Assembly (NCBI RefSeq): GCF_032878975.1
Contig: NZ_CP043875.1
Location: 1,170,370 to 1,234,369, forward strand
Source: Methanoplanus sp. FWC-SCC4
Lineage (GTDB): Archaea > Halobacteriota > Methanomicrobia > Methanomicrobiales > Methanomicrobiaceae
Direction: 5' to 3'
Length of the DNA stretch: 64,000 nucleotides
Of the stretch, positions 8,053 to 29,324 are shown piece by piece; position 1 is the stretch's first letter, and every line of letters starts with the position of its first letter. The position numbers and the translations under genes are program-made. The notes under the pieces are model-generated. The model saw nothing but the letters and a program-made list of their open reading frames with translations. It ran no database searches and was not told where the DNA came from.

Positions 8053-8067
8053 TGCTGATATGGGGAT
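8053..8067. repeat. Left attachment core (15 bp)
   Basis: TGCTGATATGGGGAT, identical to the end of the tRNA-Glu gene at 29252-29266 and in the same orientation. The match ends exactly at 15 bp on both sides. It forms codons 17-21 of int(N) on the minus strand. Confidence 0.85.
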
Positions 8068-8071
8068 GTCT

Positions 8072-8085
8072 GGGTTGACCTTCAC
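8072..8085. repeat. Left integrase arm, inverted copy of right arm
   Basis: GGGTTGACCTTCAC lies 4 bp inside the left core. Its exact reverse complement is at 29234-29247, 4 bp inside the right core. In the circular form both would flank the core symmetrically, as binding sites for an integrase dimer would. Similarity continues weakly beyond the arm. Confidence 0.75.
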
Positions 8086-8251
8086 TGCTGAAACATTTTC
8101 GCAGTGATTTTTCATTTTTAACCTCTTGTTTTTATTTTTAAATATTACATTATTGTATTTAAAACTTCAACTTTCTATCATTCAAACTTGAAATTATAAT
8201 TGAAAGAACAAATTCAGCTACAATATGCCTATTTTTTTATTTTTTTATAAT

Positions 8252-8400
8252 TTCAGTACTTCTCTAATTTTAAAGAGTCATCACTAAGATCAAGATAACT
8301 GAAAACAGACCGACACCCAGATATAACTCACAGGAGAGGACGATTTTGCTCTTAAATGCCTCCGAAACTGCCTGTAAATGAAGAATTGTTATAAAATCAT
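8252..8400 (+). mobile_element. Solo left end of an insertion sequence
   Basis: The stretch begins with TTCAGTACTTCTCTAA, the exact inverse of the right end of the IS remnant at 10905-10920. From 8257 to 8339 it is identical over 83 bp to 10403-10485, and similarity continues to about 8400 with small gaps. No transposase sequence follows this copy: the ATPase gene starts about 145 bp later. The rest of 7874-8544 (chromosomal tail to 8052, int(N), then AT-rich sequence) contains no other gene that I can support. Confidence 0.75.
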
Positions 8401-8544
8401 AAGAAAATAATCTATCTATTAATTGATTCGTTAAAAGTGAGATTATAGTAGTTCTCTACAGTTAAAAATTCAACCTTATTGATGAATAGAACCCATAGAT
8501 TAATATGAGAAAACATATATGTGTTAATACATAATTTTAAAATA

Positions 8545-10355: not shown

Positions 10356-10397
10356 TCATTTTCAATTGAAAAAAATCAATAAATACCTTTATACAAA

Positions 10398-10920
10398 TTC
10401 ACTACTTCTCTAATTTTAAAGAGTCATCACTAAGATCAAGATAACTGAAAACAGACCGACACCCAGATATAACTCACAGGAGAGGGCGATATGCTCTTAA
10501 ATTTCTCCAAAGACCACCTTTAAATGAAGAATTGTCATAAAATCAAAAGGATGTATCGATACAATCCTAAAACCCCTGATTGAATATATCGATATTCCAA
10601 TAAACAGTAATCTCACTACAAAAGATCGATTTCACACAATCAATACAGGATGAGAAATATTGTTAAACCAAAGGCATCAAAGAAGGATGTTACTATCAGA
10701 TATCTCTATGCATTGATATCATTCCTAATGAAGAATGCATGGCTGTATCTCCAAAAGAAGCATTTTACAATTCGAAAACAAGGACCACCTGTCATAGAAG
10801 AGGATTCTTTCAGTTTTAGCATGTTTATAATTCTTGTAGAGGAATAGATCAGGAATGAGCTAAAGGTCAGAACTTATGTGGAGTTTATCAGATGAGTAGA
10901 GGTTTTAGAGAAGTACTGAA
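10398..10920 (+). mobile_element. Insertion-sequence remnant with terminal inverted repeats
   Basis: Left end TTCACTACTTCTCTAA at 10398-10413 and right end TTAGAGAAGTACTGAA at 10905-10920 are inverted repeats of one another with a single mismatch. Between them lie 83 bp identical to the solo end at 8257-8339 and a decayed transposase C-terminus. At about 520 bp it has lost most of the transposase gene. No target-site duplication is evident. Together with the solo end it brackets the ATPase/membrane-protein pair, which suggests that IS recombination brought in or trimmed that module. Confidence 0.75.
10626..10846 (+). pseudogene. Transposase C-terminal fragment (DDE type), decayed
   Basis: The frame contains 'YRMRNIVKPKASKKDVTIRYLYA' followed by 'LISFLMKNAWLYLQ', here given as two pieces, which is the usual tail of archaeal IS4/ISH3-like DDE transposases: a Y-R-x-R-N motif after the catalytic Glu, then a hydrophobic helix with N-x-W. 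The residues before Y-R (S-I-S-H-N-Q) look like a mutated S-I-E-T-x-Y-R, so the catalytic Glu is probably lost. It is followed by a stop at 10844, and the frame reopens with related residues beyond it. The family cannot be named with certainty. Confidence 0.6.
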
Positions 10921-10998: not shown

Positions 10999-12139
10999 AT
11001 GGTCCAAACCGAGTTAAACGCTTCACCGTCTTCGAGCAGAGCTACAATATACCAACTTTGGGTTGCAGTAGAAAAGTGCTTTGAAATGGATGCAGAAAAC
11101 CAAAAGGTTATTATTGAAATCCTTGGTGATGTAACAATAGAAAATAAAGAACTAATCGAAGTAAAAGCTCTTTCTGCCTCTTTAACAGATAATGATATTG
11201 CTTTTTGGAAGACTCTATATAATTGGACTCAGAACACTTTTGATATCAATAATTACTCCTTAATTCTTCATACAACTCAGGAATTTGGATCTACTTCTAC
11301 TCTGTCTGAATGGAATAAAAGAGATAAGAATGAAAAATATGATATTCTTAAAGGAATTTATGAAAAATCTGAGAGTGGATTTACTAAAAAAAAGAAAAAG
11401 GATGAAAAGGCCAAGCCGTCTAAGGTTTTGTTATTACAGAGACTAATTCTAAACGAAATAGCGGAAGAAGAATTATTACGACTACTTGATCGTTTATATA
11501 TTGCTGCTTCTTCATTAGAACAAAAAGAATACTATGAACGAATAAAGATACGAGAGTTAAAAGGAATTCCCCAAAATAGACAGAACGAGTTTTTAAACTC
11601 ATTACTGGGATTCGTTTCAAAACCAAGTTTAAAGAAAAAAGATATGTGGGAAATTACTTATGCTGAATTTAAAGTATATCAAGAAAGTTTAAATTCAATG
11701 TATTGTAAGGAATCAAAGTTCTTTCCTAGAATAAATAGTCATGAATTAAATGATGAAGAATTAAGAAATTATGAAGATTACCCATTTATTCAAAAAATTA
11801 ATGATATTCAATACCCACAAGTTGTAAGAAGGGCTGTAATAGATTATTTAAGTGCATTAATAACAATCAATCAAGAATTTGAAAAACATTCTTTTCCTTT
11901 AGATAGATTACAGATATATTTAGATGACTCATTAGATGTTTTTCATAGAAAATATGAGGTTCATTCGTATAATTGCTCGAATATTATCGAAGATTCTAAA
12001 AAATTTTATAATGAAATTACAACTAGAGAGATTCCCCAAATGGAGGAATTTTATCAAACTCCTCATTATTTCCATAATGGTCTTTTACATTCAGAAATGA
12101 ATAACCCGAAAAAAGAATTAAAATGGAGATTAGATAAAA

Positions 12140-12147
<8 letters not shown>
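10999..12147 (+). CDS. ABC three-component system, nuclease-like first component
   Basis: A 382-residue protein whose first 100 residues read like the DUF4297/Cap4 class of PD-(D/E)xK nuclease domains: Glu40 in 'VIIEILGD', Asp44, then Glu54-Val-Lys56 in 'LIEVK', and 'FWKTLYNWTQN' after it. The rest is a helical domain. It starts with ATG 10999 behind GAGGGGG. Its end overlaps the next gene by 8 bp and that gene overlaps the ABC ATPase, giving the gene order of predicted ABC-3C conflict systems: variable effector, middle component, ABC ATPase. The likely job is to cut nucleic acid when the ATPase senses invading DNA; this is inference from the family, not shown by the sequence. Confidence 0.7.
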
Positions 12148-14655
<2,508 letters not shown>

Positions 14656-14768
14656 TTTTTTTACTTATGTATTGCCACATTTATTAATATGCAACTGTAA
14701 TATAATAAAAAGTAAGTATTTATAGTTTAATAAAAAAATATATATAATATTAGAACTAATATATATTT

Positions 14769-15098
14769 ATGACAATAAAATGCGGTGAACTTTTAGAAGT
14801 TCTTAATTCTACAAAGTGTAATGTTAACAACCAATTTTCTCAACAAATGAAGGATTTCATTTTTGCAAATCCTGAGCTTGCTGTTGATTTTATTGCAAAT
14901 TGCGATCCTGAATTAAAGGATTTTTGTTTTGATTGCGTGTGTGAAAAATATAGGAAACAAGAAGAATCTGAGGATGAAACGATAAAAGAATCCATTGAAA
15001 AAACAGGTTTTAGTGCAGATCAAATTGAAGAAGAGACCATAGATGATCATATAGATGAAATCATTACTGAGAATAATTTAGATAAAGAAGAGGAATAA
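14769..15098 (+). CDS. Small acidic protein of unknown function
   Basis: A 109-residue protein with a strongly acidic C-terminal half (about 27 Asp/Glu in the last 50 residues) and a Cys-rich middle (NCDPELKDFCFDCVCEKY). No known domain recognised. It follows the ABC system after 113 bp with its own AT-rich promoter region (TATATATAATAT around 14740), and starts close to that box, so its mRNA may be leaderless. An acidic small protein next to nuclease genes might be an inhibitor or DNA mimic, but this is speculation. Confidence 0.55.
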   Translation: MTIKCGELLEVLNSTKCNVNNQFSQQMKDFIFANPELAVDFIANCDPELKDFCFDCVCEKYRKQEESEDETIKESIEKTGFSADQIEEETIDDHIDEIITENNLDKEEE

Positions 15099-15202
15099 TT
15101 CCTCTATTATCTAGCTTTCGTAATTTGATCAAATGTTCACTGCTTAGATACTTATTTTTTCCAATATTTTTTCTCAATCGTTAATTTTCGCAAAAAAGAG
15201 AA

Positions 15203-15266
15203 TTAACGTTAAAATTAACGTTAAGTTCCGATTTGACCAAATTCGATTAATTGTAGTTAATCGAAT
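15203..15266. promoter_or_regulatory. Tandem palindromes and inverted repeat before helicase-nuclease gene
   Basis: The 10-bp palindrome TTAACGTTAA occurs twice, at 15203-15212 and 15215-15224, with a 12-bp spacing. Then ATTCGATTAA at 15241-15250 and its perfect reverse complement TTAATCGAAT at 15257-15266 form an inverted repeat with a 6-base loop. The group lies 66-130 bp upstream of the ATG at 15332. Two sites one helical turn apart suggest cooperative binding of a repressor; the regulator is unknown. Confidence 0.55.
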
Positions 15267-15331
15267 CGTAATTGGAAAATATTACTTGTCAAAAGATAAT
15301 TTATTCTCTTTTGTATTTGAATATATGATTT

Positions 15332-17857
15332 ATGGTTGATTTTAAAAGATTAAAAGAAAAAGAATTGAAATCAAAAAATACAGATCCTATCGTTATTTTT
15401 GAAAATCTTGATAAAAATGTAGGAAAAGAATACCTTAGACCTATTCAGGAAGATATTTTAAATAAATGGTTTACTGAATATCAAGATAACAAAGATACTA
15501 TTATTAAATTACCAACAGGTGACGGGAAAACATTAATTGCTTTATTATTACTTCAATCCTCTTTACACGCAGGTAAAGGGCCTGCATTATACATCTGCCC
15601 GAATGACATTTTAGTTAAACAAACAATAAAACAAGCAGAAGAATTTGGTATAAAAGTTGTTTCTACTGAAAGAAGAGAAGATATACCTACTGAATTTATA
15701 AATTCCCAAGCAATCTATGTAGCAAATTGTAATAAGTTATTTAATGGGTTTTCAAAATTTGGTATAAGTGGTTCAAGAGATATTGAAAAAATTGGGTCTT
15801 TAATCATGGATGATGCGCATAAATGTCTTGATATTATTAAAGACTCTTTTACTCTAAAAATTTTAAAATCTAAAAATACTGAGATTTACAATAATATATT
15901 GCGCTTATTTTCTAATTCATTAAAAAGCCAATCTATTGGAAAATATGATGATATAATTATTGGATTCCACGAATCTCTTTTAATTGTTCCATATAGAGAT
16001 TATATTGATAAATTGGATGATATTTTTGAAATATTAAAAGAATCAGACTCTGTAAAAAATCTTAAATTTCAATGGAATTTATTAAAAGACCATTTGAAAT
16101 ATTGTGATTGCTATGTTACAGGAAAAGAAATACAAATTATACCTCGAAAAATTCCTATAGATAAATTTCCATCCTTTACAAATTGTGAACATAGATACTT
16201 TTTATCCGCTACATTGACAGAAGATGCTTTTCTTATAAAAAATTTGGATATTGATAAAGATGCGATTAAACACCCTTTGACTTATTATAAAGAAAATGAT
16301 CATTATGGAGAAAGATTGATTGTTATTCCTTCAATTATTGATCCAAGTATAAATCGAGATGATTTAATCTCTTGGTTGAAATCTTTTAATTCTAAAAAAG
16401 GGGAATTTGGAATAGTCTCAATTGTACCTTCTAAAAAGTTAGCAGAGGATTGGAATGATTGTATAATTACTGACTATTCAAATTTGGATATCGAAAAGTC
16501 AAATTTTGATACGGCTATAGAACAGAAAAAATCAGATAAAATACTAGTTTTAGTAAACCAATACGATGGAATTGATTTTCCTGATAATAAGTGTAGAATT
16601 TTATGCATAGATTCTCTTCCTGATTACAGTTTTTTAGATGATAGATATTATGAAATTCTCTTTCCGAACTCTAAAATAAGCGAACGAAAATTGGCTCAAA
16701 GAATAGAACAAGGTTTTGGTCGTTCGATTCGAGGAAAAAGCGATTATTCAATCGTTTTAGTTATTGATAATAAAATATCTAGATTTTTAAGTATTCATTC
16801 AAAAAGAAAAAATTTCTCTTTTGAAACTATTAGACAAATTGAGATTGGTGAAAATGTCTGTAAAAATTTTAATGAATCCAATGTTTTTCTAGAATTAGAG
16901 GATCTTTTTGAGCAGTTTTTATCTAGAGATGAAGATTGGAAAGATTATTATAGAGGTCAAATGTCGTCAGTGATTCGATCTAGTGGTTATACTTCTGATA
17001 AAATTATAAATAGAGTAATACTGGAAAAAGGTGCTGAAGAAGCATATCAATGTGGAGAAATATCAAATGCTATTAAAAAAATTGATGAACTTATTAATTC
17101 AATAGAAAATGATTACGAAAAAGCATTTTATCTTCAGCTAAAGGCATGCTATATCTATGAAATTAATCCGAATGAGTCAAATAAAATACAACACGTTGCA
17201 TATAGAAAAAATAACCTTCTTTTAAAGCCTCTTGGTGAAATAGAATATACAAAAATTAATCCTTTAGAGTATAACCGTATTCAAAGAATTAAAAATTATA
17301 TTGGGAAGTTTCAATCAAAAAATTCGCTAATTATTGATATAAATTCTACTCTTGATGAGGTAAATTTTGATAGTTATTATAAAGATTTTCAAAGAGGTAT
17401 TTTAAATATTGGTGAACTTTTAGGATATATTTCAGACTCCCCTGAAGATAAGACAAATAAAGGCCCTGATAATTTTTGGATAACTTCAAATAATGAATGT
17501 ATGATTATTGAATGCAAAAATGAGGTGAAAGGGGAGAGAGAATTTATTTCAAAAGATGAGTCTAATCAAATGCTTAGTAGTATTGAATGGGGTAAAGAAA
17601 CATATCCTGATTTAACAGGTTATCCCTTATTCTTCCATCCTGCATATAAACTTGGAGACCAGGCATTTATTTCAGGCGATTTTTTTATAATGACCAATTC
17701 GAGATTAAACATATTAAAACAAAATATCACTAAATTTTATAAATCTATTGATGATCCGCAATTAGTTGATGAAAAATTAATAAATGAACTTCTAACTAAA
17801 AATAACTTGGAGAATAAGGATTTAATCAAAACTTATTGTATAAAGGGTCAACATTAA
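15332..17857 (+). CDS. DEAD/DEAH-type helicase fused to a PD-(D/E)xK nuclease
   Basis: An 841-residue protein. Helicase motifs: a Q-like motif YLRPIQEDIL (34-43), Walker A PTGDGKT (61-67), a DDAH box in place of DEAD/DEAH (160-163), motif III SAT (292-294) and motif VI QRIEQGFGRSIRG (457-469). The C-terminal 140 residues contain GPDNFW (711-716) and IIECKNE (725-731) followed by K-x-x-x-x-x-I-S-K-x-E-x-x-Q, which is the pattern of a PD-(D/E)xK nuclease. A translocating nuclease of this kind would act on invading DNA. No methyltransferase gene is nearby, so self-protection, if needed, must work differently from classical restriction. It is followed after 74 bp by the Mrr-type gene, which has its own promoter. 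Confidence 0.72.
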   Translation: MVDFKRLKEKELKSKNTDPIVIFENLDKNVGKEYLRPIQEDILNKWFTEYQDNKDTIIKLPTGDGKTLIALLLLQSSLHAGKGPALYICPNDILVKQTIKQAEEFGIKVVSTERREDIPTEFINSQAIYVANCNKLFNGFSKFGISGSRDIEKIGSLIMDDAHKCLDIIKDSFTLKILKSKNTEIYNNILRLFSNSLKSQSIGKYDDIIIGFHESLLIVPYRDYIDKLDDIFEILKESDSVKNLKFQWNLLKDHLKYCDCYVTGKEIQIIPRKIPIDKFPSFTNCEHRYFLSATLTEDAFLIKNLDIDKDAIKHPLTYYKENDHYGERLIVIPSIIDPSINRDDLISWLKSFNSKKGEFGIVSIVPSKKLAEDWNDCIITDYSNLDIEKSNFDTAIEQKKSDKILVLVNQYDGIDFPDNKCRILCIDSLPDYSFLDDRYYEILFPNSKISERKLAQRIEQGFGRSIRGKSDYSIVLVIDNKISRFLSIHSKRKNFSFETIRQIEIGENVCKNFNESNVFLELEDLFEQFLSRDEDWKDYYRGQMSSVIRSSGYTSDKIINRVILEKGAEEAYQCGEISNAIKKIDELINSIENDYEKAFYLQLKACYIYEINPNESNKIQHVAYRKNNLLLKPLGEIEYTKINPLEYNRIQRIKNYIGKFQSKNSLIIDINSTLDEVNFDSYYKDFQRGILNIGELLGYISDSPEDKTNKGPDNFWITSNNECMIIECKNEVKGEREFISKDESNQMLSSIEWGKETYPDLTGYPLFFHPAYKLGDQAFISGDFFIMTNSRLNILKQNITKFYKSIDDPQLVDEKLINELLTKNNLENKDLIKTYCIKGQH

Positions 17858-17894
17858 TTTAAATCTCATTAAATTTTTAAAAACATACAAAACT

Positions 17895-17907
17895 ATATTT
17901 TTATATA
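17895..17907 (+). promoter_or_regulatory. Likely TATA box for the Mrr-type nuclease gene
   Basis: An A/T box of the TTTTTATATAAA type lies about 30 bases before the ATG at 17932, the distance expected for archaeal promoters with a start site at or next to the first codon. Confidence 0.45.
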
Positions 17908-17931
17908 AACTTATTTTTTTATAGGAATAAT

Positions 17932-19785
17932 ATGACAAATAAAGGACATTTGGAAATTAATTATCGATGGCCAGGAAAATATTCATTTAATCTAATTGAT
18001 ATCTCCATAAAAAGAGATAATCAATACTTTGTCGCAGAACTTCAACATAATGGTCTTAATAAATTAAAAATTATTCGTAGTAAAAACTCTGATGAAGTAA
18101 AGAAGAAAACTGATGTCCAGATAATCCAATGGGAGGAAATGTACAATAAAAAATTAGAAAAAATTAGAAAAAATGAATTAAAAGAAGAAAAAGAAAAACA
18201 AATCAGCAAGAACATTCAACTTGCCGAAGAAAAAACAAGAATCTATCAACAAATGATCGAAGATACTGAAAATATATTAAAAGTAGGTCTTTCTCAAAAA
18301 CTTATCGTTAATTGGAATGATTTAAAAAAGAATCAAAAATTTGAAAAAGTATCTCCCAAAAAACCTGAAATTTTAACAATAGATTATTTTTCAGACAGAA
18401 TAGGCACTTTTGAAGAAGTACCTATACCTCCAGGACCTGACAAGAATTCAAATAAATATTCATATAGAAATTCTTTGTCTACTTTATTTTCTAAAAATAA
18501 AAAGACAGAAAAGATACAATCTTTAGAGAAATTATATGAAGAAGATTACAATAAATGGATAAATGACAGAGATTCAATAATTCTCAAAAATAAAAATAAT
18601 TTGGAAGAATTCAAAGCTAAAAAATCTAAATTAGAACTTGAATTAAAAGATCTGAACCAAAAAAATTTAGAGAAGTATTCTAAGGAACTGGAAAAATGGG
18701 AAAAAGAAAAAGAATCATTCAAAAAAGCCCAGAATAAATCTAATGATCTTATTGATGAATTAAAAGAAAAATATCTTCAGAAAGACTCAGAAGGTATGTG
18801 TTTTTATTGTACGCAGATATTAATTCAATCACAATATCCAGATTTTATTGAAAAATCTTTTGATTTAGAATATAATTCTGAGAATGGAACATTAATTGTG
18901 GATTATAGTTTACCATTTATTGACGATATTCCACAACTTTCTGAGGTTAAATACATAAAAACACAAGATACTTTTTCTGAAAAGAATTTATCCAAATCAG
19001 AATTAAATAGACTATATGATTACTGTATCTATAATCTAATTTTAAGAAGTTTATATGAACTATATTCTACTGATCAAAATGATCTTCTTCAATCGATTGT
19101 CTTTAATGGTTGGGTGAATTCAATTGATAGATCAACTGGAAAAAAGAAAAATGCCTGCATTGCATCGATACAAACAACAAAACCAGAATTTCTTGAATAT
19201 AACCTAGAAAATGTTGATTCAAAAGATTGTTTTAAGAGTTTGAAAGGAGTTTGTAGCTCTAAATTACATTCACTTACTCCGATTCCACCAATCCTTAACA
19301 TTGACAGATCTGATAAAAGATTTATTGATTCATATAATGTTTCTGAAAATATTGATGATTCTACAAATATTGCAGCTATGAACTGGGAGGAATTTGAATA
19401 CTTAATTGGTGAATTGTTTGAAAAAGAATTTGCTGTTAATGGAGGAGAAGTAAAAGTAACTCAAGCAAGTAGAGATGGGGGTGTCGATGCTATTGCCTTT
19501 GATCCAGATCCGATTAGAGGAGGGAAAATTGTTATCCAAGCTAAACGATACACAAACACGGTAGGTGTATCTGCTGTAAGAGATTTATTTGGAACAGTTC
19601 ATAATGAAGGGGCTATAAAGGGAATTTTAGTTACAACAGCGGATTATGGTCCCGATGCCTACAGTTTTGCTAAGGATAAACCAATTACACTTCTCAATGG
19701 AAACAATCTATTACACTTAATAGAGAAACATGGTGGCAGGGCAAAAATAGATTTAATTGAAGCCAAAAAATTAATAAATGGATGA
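17932..19785 (+). CDS. Coiled-coil protein with C-terminal Mrr-type restriction nuclease
   Basis: A 617-residue protein. Residues about 66-115 and 195-282 are charged coiled coils (E/K-rich heptads); between them is a Pro-rich patch (VPIPPGP). CFYC at 290-293 may bind metal. Residues 482-600 form an Mrr-type nuclease: W-E-E-F-E-x-L-I...D-G-G-V-D (515-519), then I-Q-A-K-R-Y (535-540), and 'GILVTTADYGPDA' and 'ITLLNGNNLL' typical of the fold. Family members cut modified or foreign DNA. The coiled coils suggest an assembly on DNA. It probably works with the helicase-nuclease just upstream, though each has a separate promoter. Catalytic residues look intact. Confidence 0.75.
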   Translation: MTNKGHLEINYRWPGKYSFNLIDISIKRDNQYFVAELQHNGLNKLKIIRSKNSDEVKKKTDVQIIQWEEMYNKKLEKIRKNELKEEKEKQISKNIQLAEEKTRIYQQMIEDTENILKVGLSQKLIVNWNDLKKNQKFEKVSPKKPEILTIDYFSDRIGTFEEVPIPPGPDKNSNKYSYRNSLSTLFSKNKKTEKIQSLEKLYEEDYNKWINDRDSIILKNKNNLEEFKAKKSKLELELKDLNQKNLEKYSKELEKWEKEKESFKKAQNKSNDLIDELKEKYLQKDSEGMCFYCTQILIQSQYPDFIEKSFDLEYNSENGTLIVDYSLPFIDDIPQLSEVKYIKTQDTFSEKNLSKSELNRLYDYCIYNLILRSLYELYSTDQNDLLQSIVFNGWVNSIDRSTGKKKNACIASIQTTKPEFLEYNLENVDSKDCFKSLKGVCSSKLHSLTPIPPILNIDRSDKRFIDSYNVSENIDDSTNIAAMNWEEFEYLIGELFEKEFAVNGGEVKVTQASRDGGVDAIAFDPDPIRGGKIVIQAKRYTNTVGVSAVRDLFGTVHNEGAIKGILVTTADYGPDAYSFAKDKPITLLNGNNLLHLIEKHGGRAKIDLIEAKKLING

Positions 19786-19865
19786 ATTTATCTTGACTAT
19801 TTTTTATTTGAAGATTATATTTAAATCCAAAACCTTTTCAATTTAAAAAAATTAATAACTCTCAT

Positions 19866-20411
19866 ATGGTATCATCGGTTCATAAAGTTTTTGTGAGCTA
19901 TCATCATGCAAATGATCAAGCATACAGAAATAAATTTGAAGAAATATTGCGAGATTCTGAAATATCTATATTAAAGTCTGTACAATTAGGAGATATTGAT
20001 GAAAACTTAAAAACTGAAACAATAAGGCAAAAAATAAGGGATGATTATCTAAGTGATTCAACTGTTACAATTGTACTAATTGGTACTGAAACTTGGAAAA
20101 GAAAACATGTTGATTGGGAAATAGGTTCAAGTATACGTCATACTGAAAAAAATTCTCGTTCAGGTCTTTTAGGTATAATTCTTCCATCTTATCCGTCATA
20201 CAAAGAAAACAAATATAATCCGTATACTATACCTCCACGTCTAAACGATAATTTAGAGTGTGATTATGCAAAAATATATCCTTGGAACGACAATCCTCAA
20301 ATTTTAAAAGAATGGATTCATGATGCTTATAATCGTAGATTTAAAGCAAATCCAAATAATGTTAGACCTTCATTTGGACAAAATAGATCTGGTGATCGTT
20401 GGTTTGATTAA
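19866..20411 (+). CDS. TIR-like (MTH538/ThsB type) protein
   Basis: A 181-residue protein. It opens with 'KVFVSYHHANDQ' (7-18), continues with 'ETIRQKIRDDYLSDSTVTIVLIG' (key residues I-R-x-K-I-R...S-T-V-T-I-V-L-I-G) and 'KHVDWEI' (80-86), with Glu85 at the place of the TIR catalytic glutamate, then 'GLLGIILP'. This is the TIR-like family (DUF1863) to which the Thoeris signal producer ThsB belongs. Such enzymes use NAD to make a nucleotide signal when infection is sensed. No ThsA (SIR2 or Macro effector) is present; the next gene, 12 bp on, encodes a membrane protein that could be the effector. Confidence 0.78.
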   Translation: MVSSVHKVFVSYHHANDQAYRNKFEEILRDSEISILKSVQLGDIDENLKTETIRQKIRDDYLSDSTVTIVLIGTETWKRKHVDWEIGSSIRHTEKNSRSGLLGIILPSYPSYKENKYNPYTIPPRLNDNLECDYAKIYPWNDNPQILKEWIHDAYNRRFKANPNNVRPSFGQNRSGDRWFD

Positions 20412-22316: not shown

Positions 22317-25300
22317 TTAACTACTATCGATTTTCTCTATAAATTTTTCATAAAATCCCAAATAATTTGAATTCATGAATTTTCCAATATCAGATATGTG
22401 CTCATAATCGATGTAATAAAATGTCGTTGTATCTATTTTATTCTCTGAAGGGTCATAATCATCATATTTTGATAAAAATTCGTCTTCATCGACTAGGATA
22501 TCAAGACAGTTCTTAATAACGGAATCTGACCAGATCACATCTTTCTTCCTTTCTTTAATCCAAGAGATTAAACTTTCCTGACTGCAACCCTTTGAACAAT
22601 TTTCATCTTTAATAGATGTGAAAAAGTTAGGATGACTAAGGATGGTTTTAATTCCAGTATAGATCTTTGAATTTCCAACAATCGATAAATAATTCAAATC
22701 ATCCTGCAAATCGACATAAGATTTGCCTAAATCTACAGCCTCGTTGTTTAATGCTTCTTTAATTTCTTCTTCAGAGAAGTTTGAAATCAGCTTCTTAAGA
22801 TTATCACCAATTGCTCTTTTTGTTGCAGTTTCAACGTCAATCTTGATTGAATAATTGTGAACTAATTTTACAATTTCCTTCATATTTTCGTTTGTAAGAT
22901 CAAAACTTTGGAATTTTGAAAGGGCCTCGTCTTTTAAATAGTCTAAATCGTCTTGTTTCAGGAACAAAAATTTACAATTTTTTTCGCAATACTCTTTGAC
23001 TGGTGAAAATCTGAGCATAGAGTTCGTAGATTCATCCATTATCAGTTTTTCGAGATTCAATTTGGACTTAGATAAAATATCTCTGTAATTTATCTCTGTC
23101 TCTAATAACAAATCTCTCTCTTCCATTAACAAATTTATTTCTTCGTCATTAGAATCGCAATTCTCTGAAATTTCCTTTAATCTTTTAGAATTTTCATGAA
23201 ATTTTGTTTTGATGCCTGAAAGACTCCTTTCTAAGCCCTCAATTTTAGCTCTATAATAAGGCAATGAGTAGTGGCAACTATCCACAAACATGATGTCTAT
23301 CCAAGGGATATCCAAACCTCTGCTGATTATTGAATTCTGATAAAAGACAATGTGCTTTCCAATACAGAAATTCAAGAATAAATCAAATGGATTTTCTTGA
23401 TGAACATTAACTAGTTTGATGTTATTTTTTAAACGCGATGCAAATGTCTCCTGATGCTTTATGCTTGATGTAAGAACCATAAAGGGGCATGTAAATTTCT
23501 CAGATTCATTGTACCTAAGTAATTTCTGAATGAAATTATCAAGCAGTCTTTTTTGTTCTCTTTTATTTTTACCACAAGCGACAATTAAAACAAAATTCTC
23601 TGAATAATCAAATCTCTCTGTTTTTAGCTCCAGAATATCATCAGGGCTGCTTACAAGATTTTCAGAAAAAATTTCTGCCTCAGTATATCCAATCAATAGA
23701 AATTTTTTCGCACATTCAGGTAATCTACAAAATCCGTATTGCTCTGGAATTAAATACAACTCGTTTTTATTCCTTGTTTTAAGATTAGCTAAAGGATTTA
23801 ACGATAAAGGATAAAGTACCGCAATAAAAATATTGATAATATCACCCCTTTGATTATGTTCAGATTTCTCAGAACAGAGACTTTCGATTAATTTTAGAGC
23901 ACTTCGCTTTAAATCGTCCTCAATCTCTGAAACGAGTTTCTCTTTTCCTTCAACACTTGGATTAATTTCTAATAAATTCTGATAGAACGTATCAAAATCA
24001 ATCGTGGAGTTATTTCCCGTTGAAACGCTATAATCATCAATCTGATTAGAGAGAGAGACCAAGTAATCGATGATTGAATTTAAGATAATCTTTTCATTTT
24101 TAAAATTCTTCTTTTTGAGAATATGTTGTTCTTTTATTTCTTTAAGGGAAATTACCAGATCTGAAAGATTATTTTCGATTTTTATAACATTATTAGATTT
24201 TTGCAATGAGGCGATCAAGAACTCTTTTGCCATAAAGTGTCTAATCGATGTATCTTCATCGATAACCATGATCTCTCTCTCCTTGAAGCATAGATGGGGC
24301 CATTTCTCCTCATCAGCTACAGTATAAAATGGAATTGTGAATACGTAATCCACGAAATCCTCACATGTATGAAGGAAGTAATATTTACACAAATCTAAAT
24401 TTAGACTCTCTAAATCAATTTTTTTATGTTTAGAGCAGTAATTTTTAGCTTTATTTTCCAATTCACTAAATGTGATAACCTCATCCTTCAGGTATGGATC
24501 ATTTTCAATTAATTTCTTCTTTTGATCAAAATTATAAGCGGGTCTTAGAGAACATGAACTGCAATTCTTTTTCTCAGTACAACTACAGGCCCTGTTCTTT
24601 CCGTACAATATTACAGCCTTTTTGTCTGGGTACAACTCGCAGAATTTTTTGAATTGTTTCTCCAAAATTGCATAATTTGGAGCTACATAAATTCCTGATT
24701 CATGTTTGCCAAGCTGAATAAGTGAATAATGTGATTTACCAGTTCTTGGCAACCCGTTTAAAATTACACATTTTTTATCTGGTAACGTATCTGGAAAAAA
24801 CTCACATTCTTTGACTTCGAATGGTAGTTCATCATAAAATTTTTTTGATGGTGAATAATCAAATTCATCATACTCGCTATAAGCTTTGATTATAGTAAAT
24901 TCAAGATAATTTTCATTCTCTGTTTTTTCATATGGTCTGAAATTTACAAATATGGCATATGCCTGTTCTGGTGAAAATTTATATTTCTTTAATTGTTTAC
25001 ACACATACCAATCAGATGCACTACGATCATAGTTTTTGTTTTCATCCAGTTTGTAAATCTCATAATCCTCAACACATGTTAGGGCAAGATCAAGTCGCCT
25101 ATTTTGTTTCCTGATCTCAGCTAATGTGATTCCATATTGATTTTTAAGAAGATCTGGATCTTGATTGGTTAAATCCTGAATTAGATCATAGTTTAGTTGG
25201 ATGTCAGAAAACTCATAATTACTATTTTCTGAGCATCTTCTTCTACTATTTGATGATCTATTTTTCTCTCCAAAATTTATCCAATCAGGAAAGTCATTTT

Positions 25301-25709
25301 CATCAATGAATTTTATTGGTTTGTTGATAAAAACCTTGTAAATTCCATCTGCTTCTGGATTATTAACCGATTTTTCATTCAATGATTTTGGAGGTACATA
25401 TGACCCTGCTCCAACAATATATTGTGAAGCCAATCTCAATTCGCCGAAATCTTTACCTTTATAATATGGATGTGGATTTCGTGTTTTACTTCTTATTCTG
25501 TATTTCTCTTTAAATGATTTTATGAAAGAACTTTTTGTGGCAAAGTAAAGATGGTATCCTCCAGAACGAGTTTGTACAGTGAAGGTATCCATATACCTCA
25601 GTAGTTCAAATAATTTATCAGAAGGTAATTTTGGTTCACCATTTTTATCCAAATCTATGTCTAAAAATGTAAGTGAGACATAATTTTCATCTTCACTTTC
25701 AACAGACAT
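22317..25709 (-). CDS. Primase-polymerase/helicase, main part downstream of a frameshift
   Basis: A replication protein of the element. Counted from the ATG at 25709: the primase-polymerase (AEP) motifs are L-D-I-D-L-D (16-21), S-G-G-Y-H-L-Y-F (49-56) and G-E-L-R...Y-I-V-G-A-G-S (89-103). A helicase domain follows with Walker A NGLPRTGKS (318-326), a four-cysteine cluster C-S-C-T-E-K-K-N-C-S-S-C (375-386) that might hold zinc or an iron-sulphur cluster, and Walker B VIDEDT further on. The frame is open upstream of 25709 to a stop at 25830-25832, and that stretch (KKWIEERESLHQDH, IINNHGNFGIVGT) is clearly primase sequence although it has no start codon. The N-terminus lies in another frame at 25802-26017. 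Full product about 1,230 residues. Confidence 0.78.
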   Translation of the reverse strand: MSVESEDENYVSLTFLDIDLDKNGEPKLPSDKLFELLRYMDTFTVQTRSGGYHLYFATKSSFIKSFKEKYRIRSKTRNPHPYYKGKDFGELRLASQYIVGAGSYVPPKSLNEKSVNNPEADGIYKVFINKPIKFIDENDFPDWINFGEKNRSSNSRRRCSENSNYEFSDIQLNYDLIQDLTNQDPDLLKNQYGITLAEIRKQNRRLDLALTCVEDYEIYKLDENKNYDRSASDWYVCKQLKKYKFSPEQAYAIFVNFRPYEKTENENYLEFTIIKAYSEYDEFDYSPSKKFYDELPFEVKECEFFPDTLPDKKCVILNGLPRTGKSHYSLIQLGKHESGIYVAPNYAILEKQFKKFCELYPDKKAVILYGKNRACSCTEKKNCSSCSLRPAYNFDQKKKLIENDPYLKDEVITFSELENKAKNYCSKHKKIDLESLNLDLCKYYFLHTCEDFVDYVFTIPFYTVADEEKWPHLCFKEREIMVIDEDTSIRHFMAKEFLIASLQKSNNVIKIENNLSDLVISLKEIKEQHILKKKNFKNEKIILNSIIDYLVSLSNQIDDYSVSTGNNSTIDFDTFYQNLLEINPSVEGKEKLVSEIEDDLKRSALKLIESLCSEKSEHNQRGDIINIFIAVLYPLSLNPLANLKTRNKNELYLIPEQYGFCRLPECAKKFLLIGYTEAEIFSENLVSSPDDILELKTERFDYSENFVLIVACGKNKREQKRLLDNFIQKLLRYNESEKFTCPFMVLTSSIKHQETFASRLKNNIKLVNVHQENPFDLFLNFCIGKHIVFYQNSIISRGLDIPWIDIMFVDSCHYSLPYYRAKIEGLERSLSGIKTKFHENSKRLKEISENCDSNDEEINLLMEERDLLLETEINYRDILSKSKLNLEKLIMDESTNSMLRFSPVKEYCEKNCKFLFLKQDDLDYLKDEALSKFQSFDLTNENMKEIVKLVHNYSIKIDVETATKRAIGDNLKKLISNFSEEEIKEALNNEAVDLGKSYVDLQDDLNYLSIVGNSKIYTGIKTILSHPNFFTSIKDENCSKGCSQESLISWIKERKKDVIWSDSVIKNCLDILVDEDEFLSKYDDYDPSENKIDTTTFYYIDYEHISDIGKFMNSNYLGFYEKFIEKIDSS

Positions 25710-25801
25710 CTGATGTGTACCTACAATTCCAAAATTTCCATGATTGTTAATGATATCAAGGATAATGTCATCATGATCCTGATGGAGAGATTCTCTTTCT
25801 T

Positions 25802-26017
25802 CTATCCATTTTTTCCTGATGATGGTATTTTACCATTTTTTACTAAAGGCAGGGCATAATAATCAAATTTAAGATCAGTATCTTTGCAATTCTGGTCTAA
25901 TTCTTCTAATCTGTGTTTAAATTTTTGATATTCCCGATGCCTTATTTTTGTTCTTAGAGGAGTTGTTTCATCTTTTAAGACTTCATCTACATATTCATTA
26001 AATTCCTCGTCCTTCAT
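25802..26017 (-). CDS. N-terminal piece of the primase-polymerase, before the frameshift
   Basis: A 71-residue frame ending F-D-Y-Y-A-L-P-L-V-K-N-G-K-I-P-S-S-G-K-N-G. The A-L-P-L-x-x-x-G-K-I-P pattern is the usual start of archaeal primase-polymerase domains, which continues with a conserved Trp. Here the frame stops four codons after it, while the -1 frame continues with W-I-E-E-R-E into the large protein. The start ATG (26017) overlaps the preceding small gene by 4 bp. Read alone it would be a truncated protein with no catalytic residues. Confidence 0.6.
   Translation of the reverse strand: MKDEEFNEYVDEVLKDETTPLRTKIRHREYQKFKHRLEELDQNCKDTDLKFDYYALPLVKNGKIPSSGKNG
25809..25814 (-). other. Frameshift site (A6 run) in the primase gene
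   Basis: On the minus strand the sequence reads GGA AAA AAT GGA TAG. A slip of one base backward on A-AAA-AAT leads to TGG ATA GAA GAA, exactly the frame of the downstream primase. The heptamer has the X-XXY-YYZ form of -1 slippery sites and the zero-frame stop follows one codon later. One A missing from a run of seven (mutation or sequencing error) would look the same. Confidence 0.65.
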
Positions 26018-26187
26018 AGGGTCACCTCCTGAAGAAGTTTACTAATTCTTATTCTGTAGCCATTCTCGTTCACTAAAATTAGTTTCTTATTTTCTTCAAG
26101 CACTAACGCGACTAATTTTTGAAATAAGTCTAATTTATCGAATATTTCTTTTGTAATTAAATAATCTACTTTCAAATTTTTTTGCAA
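26014..26187 (-). CDS. Small protein of the element, unknown
   Basis: A 57-residue protein if started at TTG 26187, which has AAGGAG upstream; earlier in-frame GTG and TTG codons (26196, 26208) lie on or before that site. Sequence: basic N-terminus, then 'ITKEIFDKLDLFQKLVALVLEE' and 'YRIRISKLLQEV' in pieces; helical, no known domain. It ends overlapping the ATG of the primase N-terminal piece, so it is in one transcription unit with it. Possibly a small regulator of replication. Confidence 0.5.
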   Translation of the reverse strand: MQKNLKVDYLITKEIFDKLDLFQKLVALVLEENKKLILVNENGYRIRISKLLQEVTL

Positions 26188-26266
26188 AGTATTCACTCTC
26201 CTTATCAAAATTTTGTTAAAATTTTGGAGAGGGTTTACAAATTTTGTAAAACGCCTTATTCTCCTT

Positions 26267-27481
26267 CTATACCAAATTATTTGCCTGAGATGCGGCTATT
26301 TTCTGAATTATATCTTTGACAAGTTTGAATTCAGATGTATCCTCAATAACTTTAGTGAATTGCTCCAAATGACCCGTAGAATAAGCTTCTAACGGGTTGT
26401 TACAATTTGCACATATTTTATAATTACCTGGATTAATGTGATTACAGAAACTACATTCTTTAGCATCCAGAATATGGTTGTTTACATGATCATTATCGGA
26501 GGTCTTGAGATTGTTTAAATTATCAATAGCATAATCAAGATCCTTATTTGCAATATGTGAGTAAGTAGCCAATTCATTTGTTTTTAAATTACCCCACATT
26601 ATCATTTTGATTGCATATTCTGATACACCAGAATTTATCATGTGAGTTATTCTGGCGTGCCTAAAGCAGTGAGGAGTAATATTATTTGTTATCCCTGCAC
26701 GCTTTAGAACATCAATTAATTGCTCTCTAAATGCTGCATATTCTAACTTCTTCTGATTTTTATCTAAAAATACATAATTGTTCCCCTCAGGCTTGAGTGG
26801 ATAAGTGTTCTTGTGCATTTTTAGATATTCAACAGAACTTCGAAGCGGAACGTGTCTGCTTTTGTTTGTTTTTCCTCTGACAGTTAGCGATGCTTTACCA
26901 TTATTTTGAAAATTAATTTGGTTCCATCTCAAATTGCAAACTTCGCTCGGTCTGAGTCCAGCTTCATAAGTTAGATTATAAATTGTTTTATCCCGAACGG
27001 TGATTGAATAATCTATAATCTTTTTAATTGTTGGTTGATCAGGAATATTTTCCTGCAACTTTGTATGTGAATCTTTGCCATCTGGCTTAATTGATTCAAT
27101 ATCGCCAATTAAAATTTTAGAGTGAGCCTGATTTACAAGAAACCTGAAAAATGATTTGGTTATTGACACGTAATCATTAATGGTATTTTGTTTAAGCTTC
27201 TTTGAATCCTTTGAACTTGGATGTCTCATTTCGAAGAAAAGATTTTTTAAATCTTCAAAATTGCACTCACTAAACTGTTTATTTAAGCCATACATTTTTC
27301 TTAGGCCAACAAGGTGATATGAAATTTTCTTCATTCTTCTGTCTGAGATTCCTCCTCTAGTCATATCAACATTGATGCAATACTTTTTTATCAATTCAGA
27401 GTCTAATTTTGTAATGTAACCTAACTCGATTAATTTTTCATGATATGTGGTGATATCATGAAGAATCATTTTTTCACGCAT
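26267..27481 (-). CDS. Tyrosine recombinase/integrase with C-terminal zinc ribbon
   Basis: A 404-residue integrase. N-terminal SAM-like DNA-binding domain (about 10-130), then the catalytic domain with Arg177 in E-A-G-L-R-P-S-E-V, His271-x-x-Arg274 in H-C-F-R-H-A-R, and Tyr307 in A-T-Y-S-H. A C-terminal zinc ribbon (C-S-F-C...C-A-N-C) follows. All catalytic residues are present, so it is probably active. It is a diverged paralogue of the split integrase at 27884-29266, sharing the whole layout. As an intact gene it could serve excision when the other is partitioned, or another reaction such as resolving dimers. Confidence 0.85.
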   Translation of the reverse strand: MREKMILHDITTYHEKLIELGYITKLDSELIKKYCINVDMTRGGISDRRMKKISYHLVGLRKMYGLNKQFSECNFEDLKNLFFEMRHPSSKDSKKLKQNTINDYVSITKSFFRFLVNQAHSKILIGDIESIKPDGKDSHTKLQENIPDQPTIKKIIDYSITVRDKTIYNLTYEAGLRPSEVCNLRWNQINFQNNGKASLTVRGKTNKSRHVPLRSSVEYLKMHKNTYPLKPEGNNYVFLDKNQKKLEYAAFREQLIDVLKRAGITNNITPHCFRHARITHMINSGVSEYAIKMIMWGNLKTNELATYSHIANKDLDYAIDNLNNLKTSDNDHVNNHILDAKECSFCNHINPGNYKICANCNNPLEAYSTGHLEQFTKVIEDTSEFKLVKDIIQKIAASQANNLV

Positions 27482-27883: not shown

Positions 27884-29266
27884 TTAGTCTTTATTTTCCA
27901 AAAAACCTTCTAATAATGCTAAAATCTGGTTGTATATGTCTGGAGGGAGATTTTTCCGTACTGAATTTTTTTGAAAGCCATGATTGTCAGAACTCGCGCA
28001 CAAATCTAGTGATCGCCCACACCTTGCGCACACAGAAAATGTCTTGGGATTTACAGTTTGACAGTTGGGACATTGAACAGCATCCAACCTATGGTTTTCG
28101 TCCTGATTGGAGATCCTTATCCCGTTTCTAAGAAAGATCTCATTGTCGATATCCTGATTACATAGATGAAGATAAGTCTCAAATTCCTTTGTGTTGATAT
28201 TCCCCCACATCATCTTCTTGATCATACTTTCGGAATATCCATCCCTTATCATCTGAGTAATTCTGGAGTGTCTAAATAGATGTGGTGTGACTTTTTTCTC
28301 AAAACCAGTCCGTTTTGCGATTAAATTAAATTGGGCGCGGATTGCAGAATATGTCAATGGTGTGTTGTCATTTTTTAGAAAAACGAAGTTCTCTCCACTT
28401 GGTTTAAATGGATAATTGTTTTTCCACTGAATAAGGTATTCTTTCGCAGCTACAAGACGAACATAACGCTCCTTCTTCGTCTTCTCATCAACATTGATGA
28501 TAACTCCATATTCGTCAATTTTTACCTGATTCCATTTCATATTCCCAATTTCACATGCTCTAAAACCACCTTCGTACATCACATAGATAAGGGCCTTATC
28601 ACGGATTGTGAAAGAACACCTAATCATACTGGCAATCTCTGATTCGCTTAAAATATCATTGGCAGTTTTAGTCTGACAGTCTTTCAATGAAGTCTTGATT
28701 GATTTGATATCTTCAATGTCAATATCGGATAATTTGTTCTTTATCAGGAACTGGTAGAAGCCCTTGAGAATAGTCTTGTAATCGTTTTTAGTGTTCAGCT
28801 TATATGGCAGACCCTTTTGTGAATTTGCATAATCCAGTTTTTCTATAGCATCAAGTATATCATCAAAAGAGCATGTGGTGTATTCATCCAACCCTAAGAA
28901 TTTTCTCCAGCCTATCAAATGTTGAGAGATCTTCATCATCCGATTTTCACTAAGCGTGGAATTCTTATTCCTGACGAACTTGAAGTATTTCTTAATGAGT
29001 TGATATTCATCTTCTGTGATATGTCCTTCATCAACGGCTTTCAGAAGGTTCTCATCAACTTTTTTTCTGCTGACCTTGTGGAAACCCTTATACTCAAAAC
29101 TGTTAGCATCTGATAGGTTCTGTAATGGTTTGTGTGAAGAATAGAATGACGGCTCAGTTCTAGATACTTGTAAGTCTTGAGTTAAATTTTCAAAATTGTC
29201 ATGCCTTCCAAGCTCAACTTTTTCGTTTGAGATGTGAAGGTCAACCCCGAATGCTGATATGGGGAT
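27884..29266 (-). CDS. int(C): main part of the partitioned tyrosine integrase
   Basis: The frame is open from inside the tRNA-Glu gene through the attachment core to the stop at 27884. There is no ATG, GTG or TTG in frame between the core and the ATG at 28939, yet the sequence in between (VDEGHITEDEYQLIKKY, NSTLSENRMMKI) aligns with the N-terminal domain of the neighbouring integrase (ELGYITKLDSELIKKY, GGISDRRMKKI). So 28939 is an internal Met and not the native start. Catalytic residues: Arg in G-G-F-R-A-C-E-I, H-L-F-R-H-S-R, and Tyr in E-T-Y-L-H-L. A zinc ribbon (C-P-N-C...C-A-R-C) follows. The missing first 16 codons plus the core are at 8053-8115. In the chromosome this fragment may be silent or expressed in truncated form. 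Confidence 0.85.
   Translation of the reverse strand: MPISAFGVDLHISNEKVELGRHDNFENLTQDLQVSRTEPSFYSSHKPLQNLSDANSFEYKGFHKVSRKKVDENLLKAVDEGHITEDEYQLIKKYFKFVRNKNSTLSENRMMKISQHLIGWRKFLGLDEYTTCSFDDILDAIEKLDYANSQKGLPYKLNTKNDYKTILKGFYQFLIKNKLSDIDIEDIKSIKTSLKDCQTKTANDILSESEIASMIRCSFTIRDKALIYVMYEGGFRACEIGNMKWNQVKIDEYGVIINVDEKTKKERYVRLVAAKEYLIQWKNNYPFKPSGENFVFLKNDNTPLTYSAIRAQFNLIAKRTGFEKKVTPHLFRHSRITQMIRDGYSESMIKKMMWGNINTKEFETYLHLCNQDIDNEIFLRNGIRISNQDENHRLDAVQCPNCQTVNPKTFSVCARCGRSLDLCASSDNHGFQKNSVRKNLPPDIYNQILALLEGFLENKD
29234..29247. repeat. Right integrase arm, inverted copy of left arm
   Basis: GTGAAGGTCAACCC, exact reverse complement of 8072-8085, 4 bp from the core on the element side. Confidence 0.75.
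29252..29266. repeat. Right attachment core (15 bp) within tRNA-Glu
   Basis: TGCTGATATGGGGAT, the plus-strand reading of the last 15 bases of the tRNA (part of the T stem, acceptor strand and discriminator base). Repeated at 8053-8067. Integration leaves the tRNA complete. Confidence 0.85.
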
Positions 29267-29324
29267 TTGAACCCCAGTCGCCGGCGTGAAAGGCCGGCAT
29301 GATTGGCCCCTACACTATATCAGC
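29252..29324 (-). tRNA. tRNA-Glu (anticodon UUC)
   Basis: A 73-base cloverleaf: acceptor stem GCTGATA/TATCAGC with discriminator A, anticodon stem GCCGGC/GCCGGC with loop CTTTCAC giving anticodon TTC, and T arm TGGGG-TTCAAAT-CCCCA. The variable loop is short. The gene ends in A without an encoded CCA. It is the integration target of the element that begins immediately downstream. Confidence 0.93.

Follow-up and report, generated by a model that had tools for sequence, protein, structure and literature searches.

An element integrated at a tRNA-Glu gene

We have analyzed a 64,000 nt stretch of the Methanoplanus sp. FWC-SCC4 chromosome (contig NZ_CP043875.1, positions 1,170,370 to 1,234,369), which we call the window. 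Positions given below refer to the window, unless another sequence is named. It contains an integrated element of 21.2 kb, with 29% GC vs 40% in the host. The element is bounded by two copies of the 15 bp 3' end of tRNA-Glu: attL (8053..8067) is its left end and attR (29252..29266) its right end, the latter being part of the tRNA-Glu gene (29252-29324, minus strand). Three more genomic copies of these 15 bp (G000:C1:1142597, 1350876 and 1558591) could correspond to other tRNA-Glu genes or to integration sites.

The C-terminal part of a tyrosine recombinase is found next to attR (27884..29251, minus strand; PF00589 Phage_integrase, E 5.5e-23). This frame is open through the att site and has no start codon in place: it has been cut off from its start at attR. 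The integrase gene begins at the other end of the element, 21 kb away in the chromosome, where its 16 N-terminal codons are found together with the att core (8053..8115, minus strand; ATG at 8115, Shine-Dalgarno GAGGTT). When the element ends are joined, a single integrase frame is obtained, with GAGGTT followed by the start MKNHCENVSAVKVNPD and continuing through the att core. Because the joined ends give one frame through the core, the recombinase can be classified by its sequence as an SSV-type ("suicidal") integrase, with predicted recombination activity, split by integration in the tRNA-Glu gene of a methanogen. In the joined form the att core is flanked by inverted arms, GTGAAGGTCAACCC and GGGTTGACCTTCAC. 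An element of this type cannot easily leave the chromosome without outside help. The element has another tyrosine recombinase (26267..27481, minus strand), which is unsplit and shares 40% identity with the split one; it might be a source of such help for excision.

The element also carries a series of genes similar to defence genes (10999..20411, plus strand). They comprise LmuA/LmuC/LmuB-like genes of the ABC-3C/Lamassu type (10999-14655, plus strand; LmuC/MC3 and LmuB DUF3732), a PDC-S28-like helicase (15332-17857, plus strand), an Mrr type IV nuclease (17932-19785, plus strand) and a ThsB-like TIR protein (19866-20411, plus strand). At its left end, a direct repeat of 162 bp flanks two genes; the copies of the repeat (8242-8403 and 10388-10549) are 85% identical.

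A primase-polymerase gene in two frames

Two open frames on the minus strand cover the gene studied here. ORF a (25802..26017, minus strand) extends from ATG 26017 to TAG 25802 and codes for 71 aa, its start being preceded by a good Shine-Dalgarno sequence of the GGAGGTGA type. ORF b (22317..25829, minus strand) has 1170 codons and is offset by -1 from ORF a. At the break, ORF a reads ..CCA TCA TCA GGA AAA AAT GGA TAG, while ORF b reads ..AGG AAA AAA TGG ATA GAA.. The offset is located at an A-AAA-AAT heptamer (25808..25814, minus strand) in the zero frame of ORF a, and the zero-frame TAG lies two codons past its AAT. A second in-frame copy of A-AAA-AAT is found in ORF a, nine codons upstream of the break (25841-25835), where a -1 slip would meet TAA at once. 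The first ATG, GTG or TTG of ORF b is an ATG (25707..25709, minus strand), 40 codons into the frame and about 93 nt past the ORF a stop. A small ORF with a TTG start (26014..26208, minus strand, 64 aa) shares 4 nt with the start of ORF a and is probably on the same transcript; a Pfam search with it gave no match.

Taken by itself, ORF a scores 30.1 bits (E = 1.1e-7) with a profile built from the relatives, and 12 bits with a broader profile. Between the P of ORF a and the W of ORF b, which begins the string W-I-E-E-R, there are five residues across the break, the same spacing as in the two nearest homologues. Because of this match and this spacing, the two frames are parts of a single gene, shifted by a net one base and otherwise without visible damage; ORF a holds the N-terminal 71 codons. 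The original prediction had described a primase-polymerase gene divided between two frames at GGA-AAA-AAT, with no downstream start for about 40 conserved codons. These claims agree with our results, since both pieces match one family and the first start is ATG 25709. The second heptamer in ORF a had been missed.

The gene appears to code for a primase-polymerase of the ORF904 type fused to a putative helicase, which would be the replication protein of the 21.2 kb element. A profile made from seven family sequences of the first domain matches the ORF904 structure 3M1M over residues 19-328 (E 5.4e-13), and also 1RNI and 1RO0. The match takes in the N-terminal K-x-P..W region, which is now in ORF a. 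The rest of the domain is in ORF b (approximately 25829-24840, minus strand), where the alignment indicates that the residues of the primase metal site are kept: DID 57-59, H93 and E130, corresponding to the catalytic D-x-D/E, the H and the third acidic residue. ORF b alone reaches 15.6 bits with Pfam PF09250 Prim-Pol, under the cut-off of 22.8. Foldseek, used with a low-confidence model of ORF b (pTM 0.53, ORF a not included), lists the same ORF904 structures first as the profile search; 3M1M is the top match (E 1.7e-8), with poor TM-scores (0.27 for 3M1M). Aligned with ORF904, the gene is broken within the first strand-loop of the primase fold (K-K-P..W), so the 71 aa product would lack all the catalytic residues.

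The C-terminal 840 residues (24839-22320, minus strand) contain, in the alignment, a Walker A motif (GLPRTGKS), a Walker B motif (VIDED) and an SRGLDIP motif. This half has no significant match to solved helicases or Pfam families, so "helicase" is a label that we infer from its motifs. An iron-sulphur (XPD-like) reading of a Cys cluster in the same half was dropped, as no significant match was found.

Homologous genes

We have found 16 homologues which cross the position of the break, from 14 genomes that belong to the same order or phylum. All of them (16/16) do so in one frame, as a single continuous gene; only the copy in the window is split, at 25808-25814. None of the 16 is split at the equivalent place and none has a slippery heptamer there. 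Unsplit homologues with no slippery sequence were precisely what the original prediction had named as evidence against a programmed frameshift. Only two of the relatives are close (28-35% identity), the remaining homologues are distant. A search at the class level gave the same genomes as at the order level, and no relative was found when ORF b was used to search viral contigs, phages, plasmids and genome contigs.

The nearest homologue (L002, in genome G057 of the same archaeal order) is an unsplit protein of 1276 aa with the same two domains and 34% identity. Its G-K-K-P codons, only a few codons from the equivalent place, contain an A7 run, and still it is not split. Another homologue (L068) has an in-frame A-AAA-AAT near the equivalent place and is also unsplit. 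The arrangement in G057 differs from that in the window: in addition to the unbroken gene, it has a partial paralogue of the primase domain directly upstream (L003:1174-2409). This paralogue also crosses the position of the break in one frame. Its first catalytic Asp has been lost, with FIVLDRD vs FIDLDLN in the full gene.

The two frames might also be considered as two functional genes, a small protein encoded by ORF a and a helicase/primase of 1130 aa starting at ATG 25709. This ATG is a possible internal start, with AGGT nine bases upstream, and the domain which follows it is intact. On the other hand, the 40 codons before it are conserved coding sequence (W...GNFGIV), and the homologues carry both parts in one chain, so the 1130 aa product would be without the conserved GNFGIV strand, a part of the primase fold. 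We regard two separate genes as very improbable. Slippage of RNA polymerase at the A run, giving mixed mRNAs of which some would be in frame, appears even more improbable. There is indeed a homopolymer at the break, but it is not conserved in the relatives. Transcriptional slippage usually takes place at runs longer than six, and the run found here has only six.

The heptamer and the recoding signals

A programmed -1 ribosomal frameshift at A-AAA-AAT would produce the 71 aa peptide and the full-length primase-helicase in a set ratio. Several features agree with such a mechanism. The heptamer is in the zero frame and belongs to a type proven in archaea, in the fucA1 gene of Sulfolobus solfataricus, which codes for an alpha-L-fucosidase (PMC8037382, PMC8211752). 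The zero-frame stop follows closely, and the long downstream frame is otherwise intact.

Against these features, the heptamer is also common in intact genes. In the genes of the element, A-AAA-AAT is found in frame 25 times in 5,998 codons (one per 240 codons), two of them inside ORF a; slippery heptamers of any form are found 73 times in the same codons. Its presence at the break is no more than chance in such an AT-rich element. Nor do the recoding signals looked for around the heptamer go beyond chance. A downstream RNA stem-loop is not supported (z = +0.51; 136 of 200 shuffled sequences fold at least as well, in a model without pseudoknots). There is no Shine-Dalgarno-like element 8-14 nt upstream of the heptamer, and the only Shine-Dalgarno core in the 26 nt upstream is an AGG which touches the A run. 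The product of the zero frame would stop short within the first strand-loop of the fold, a further argument against a programmed shift.

In fact, a slippery heptamer is a common by-product of a one-base lesion in an A/T run. We have simulated the removal of one base in A/T runs of at least 7 inside genes, 22 cases in the element and 406 in the host. A zero-frame slippery heptamer is left in 8/22 and 114/406 of them, respectively, which is the basis of this statement. A heptamer followed by a stop within 5 codons is left in 3/22 cases in the element and 17/406 in the host.

The original prediction had left the choice between a programmed -1 frameshift and a broken replicase. The 16 single-frame homologues, the frequency of the heptamer in intact genes and the lack of downstream structure favour the second, and they make a programmed shift unlikely. 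It should be noted that the lack of conservation does not disprove recoding, since most relatives of fucA1, including other copies in Sulfolobales, are also in one frame (PMC8211752). A lineage-specific shift of the fucA1 kind, which would keep the primase-helicase at a low level while the element is integrated in the methanogen, might be proposed; we consider it decidedly unlikely.

Mutation or base-calling error

If the split is due to a lesion, it may be a real mutation or an error of base calling or assembly in the A6/T6 run, in which case the gene would be intact in the organism. In order to find similar cases, we have scanned 864 kb for frameshifts, the host being sampled as two stretches of 400 kb. 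A frameshift-aware HMM, for which host genes were the training set, reported 109 frame changes; almost all were gene overlaps. Four were left when the absence of a start codon was required: two genes which appear to start with CTG, a sensor kinase with a T8 run and the region at L004:10337. The HMM did not flag the primase gene, which was flagged by a simpler scan.

The sensor-kinase gene is chromosomal (L021:11892-14155, corresponding to G000:C1:2011892-2014155). It is broken with a -1 offset at G000:C1:2012690, in a T8 run; the sign is the same as in the primase gene, and pieces of 266 and 496 aa are left. In relatives (G113 and G118) the gene is in one frame, with 746-750 aa. The region at L004:10337 is a candidate broken gene near an A7 run, with pieces of 170 and 362 aa and the opposite sign. 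The other two cases, at about 42433 (minus strand) and L004:14161 (methyltransferase, YcaO), have no ATG, GTG or TTG near the conserved start, a CTG is found there behind a Shine-Dalgarno sequence.

A base-calling error would fit with the position of the break in a homopolymer, and with the other break of this sign, in a chromosomal gene which is intact in relatives. Nevertheless, A6 is a short run. The long genes in the host sample contain about 1,250 A/T runs of at least six, and we have found only one or two other breaks; the general error rate must be low, which favours a real mutation. We conclude that an error is possible, and that a mutation is the somewhat likelier cause.

Origin of the split gene

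Our preferred explanation is a recent one-base lesion, or a base-calling error in a homopolymer, in the replicase of an integrated element, rather than a programmed shift; we assign it a probability of roughly 0.86. One base would have been lost by a slippage mutation in the DNA, or miscalled, in the A run which is found after some 70 codons of the gene. The lesion must be recent or only apparent, because the 1170 codons of ORF b are uninterrupted and the residues of the primase metal site are retained. The ends of the element and its split integrase suggest a locked state in which it would be copied passively with the chromosome (PMC8371274). Its own replicase would not be needed in such a state, and lesions in the replicase gene could therefore be tolerated. 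The lesion would leave a 71 aa fragment with no catalytic residue. Leaky, low-level frameshifting may take place at the heptamer, so perhaps a little full-length protein is made by chance slippage; a truncated protein of 1130 aa from ATG 25709 could be made instead.

A programmed shift at this site would be, judging from a review (PMC8211752), one of the very few well-founded cases of -1 recoding in archaeal genes outside viruses, and the gene affected would be one with which an integrative element replicates. Most likely, the split is an ordinary small lesion of the common one-base kind, or a miscalled base. Caution is required in similar cases: The loss of a base from an A/T run in an AT-rich gene often leaves a textbook slippery heptamer.

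Comparison with known systems

The primase domain of the gene shares its profile match with ORF904 of the Sulfolobus plasmid pRN1 (PDB 3M1M, 1RNI, 1RO0; PF09250). The gene in the window differs from ORF904 in being split, and in a C-terminal half with Walker A/B and SRGLDIP motifs for which solved helicases and Pfam give no significant match.

The split itself may be compared with fucA1. Both genes have A-AAA-AAT in the zero frame, a short upstream ORF (81 aa in fucA1, 71 aa in the window) and relatives in a single frame. On the other hand, tandem rare codons flank the site in fucA1, a putative stem-loop is present there and the product is proven, while the site in the window has no structure beyond chance.

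The element resembles integrated archaeal elements with SSV-type integrases, such as SSV1, pTN3 and pT26-2 (PMC8371274). As in these elements, integration splits the integrase gene, which contains the att core, and the core is also located at a tRNA gene 3' end. There are also two differences: The core has 15 bp, vs the usual 40-50 bp, and an unsplit paralogue of the integrase is present alongside the split one.
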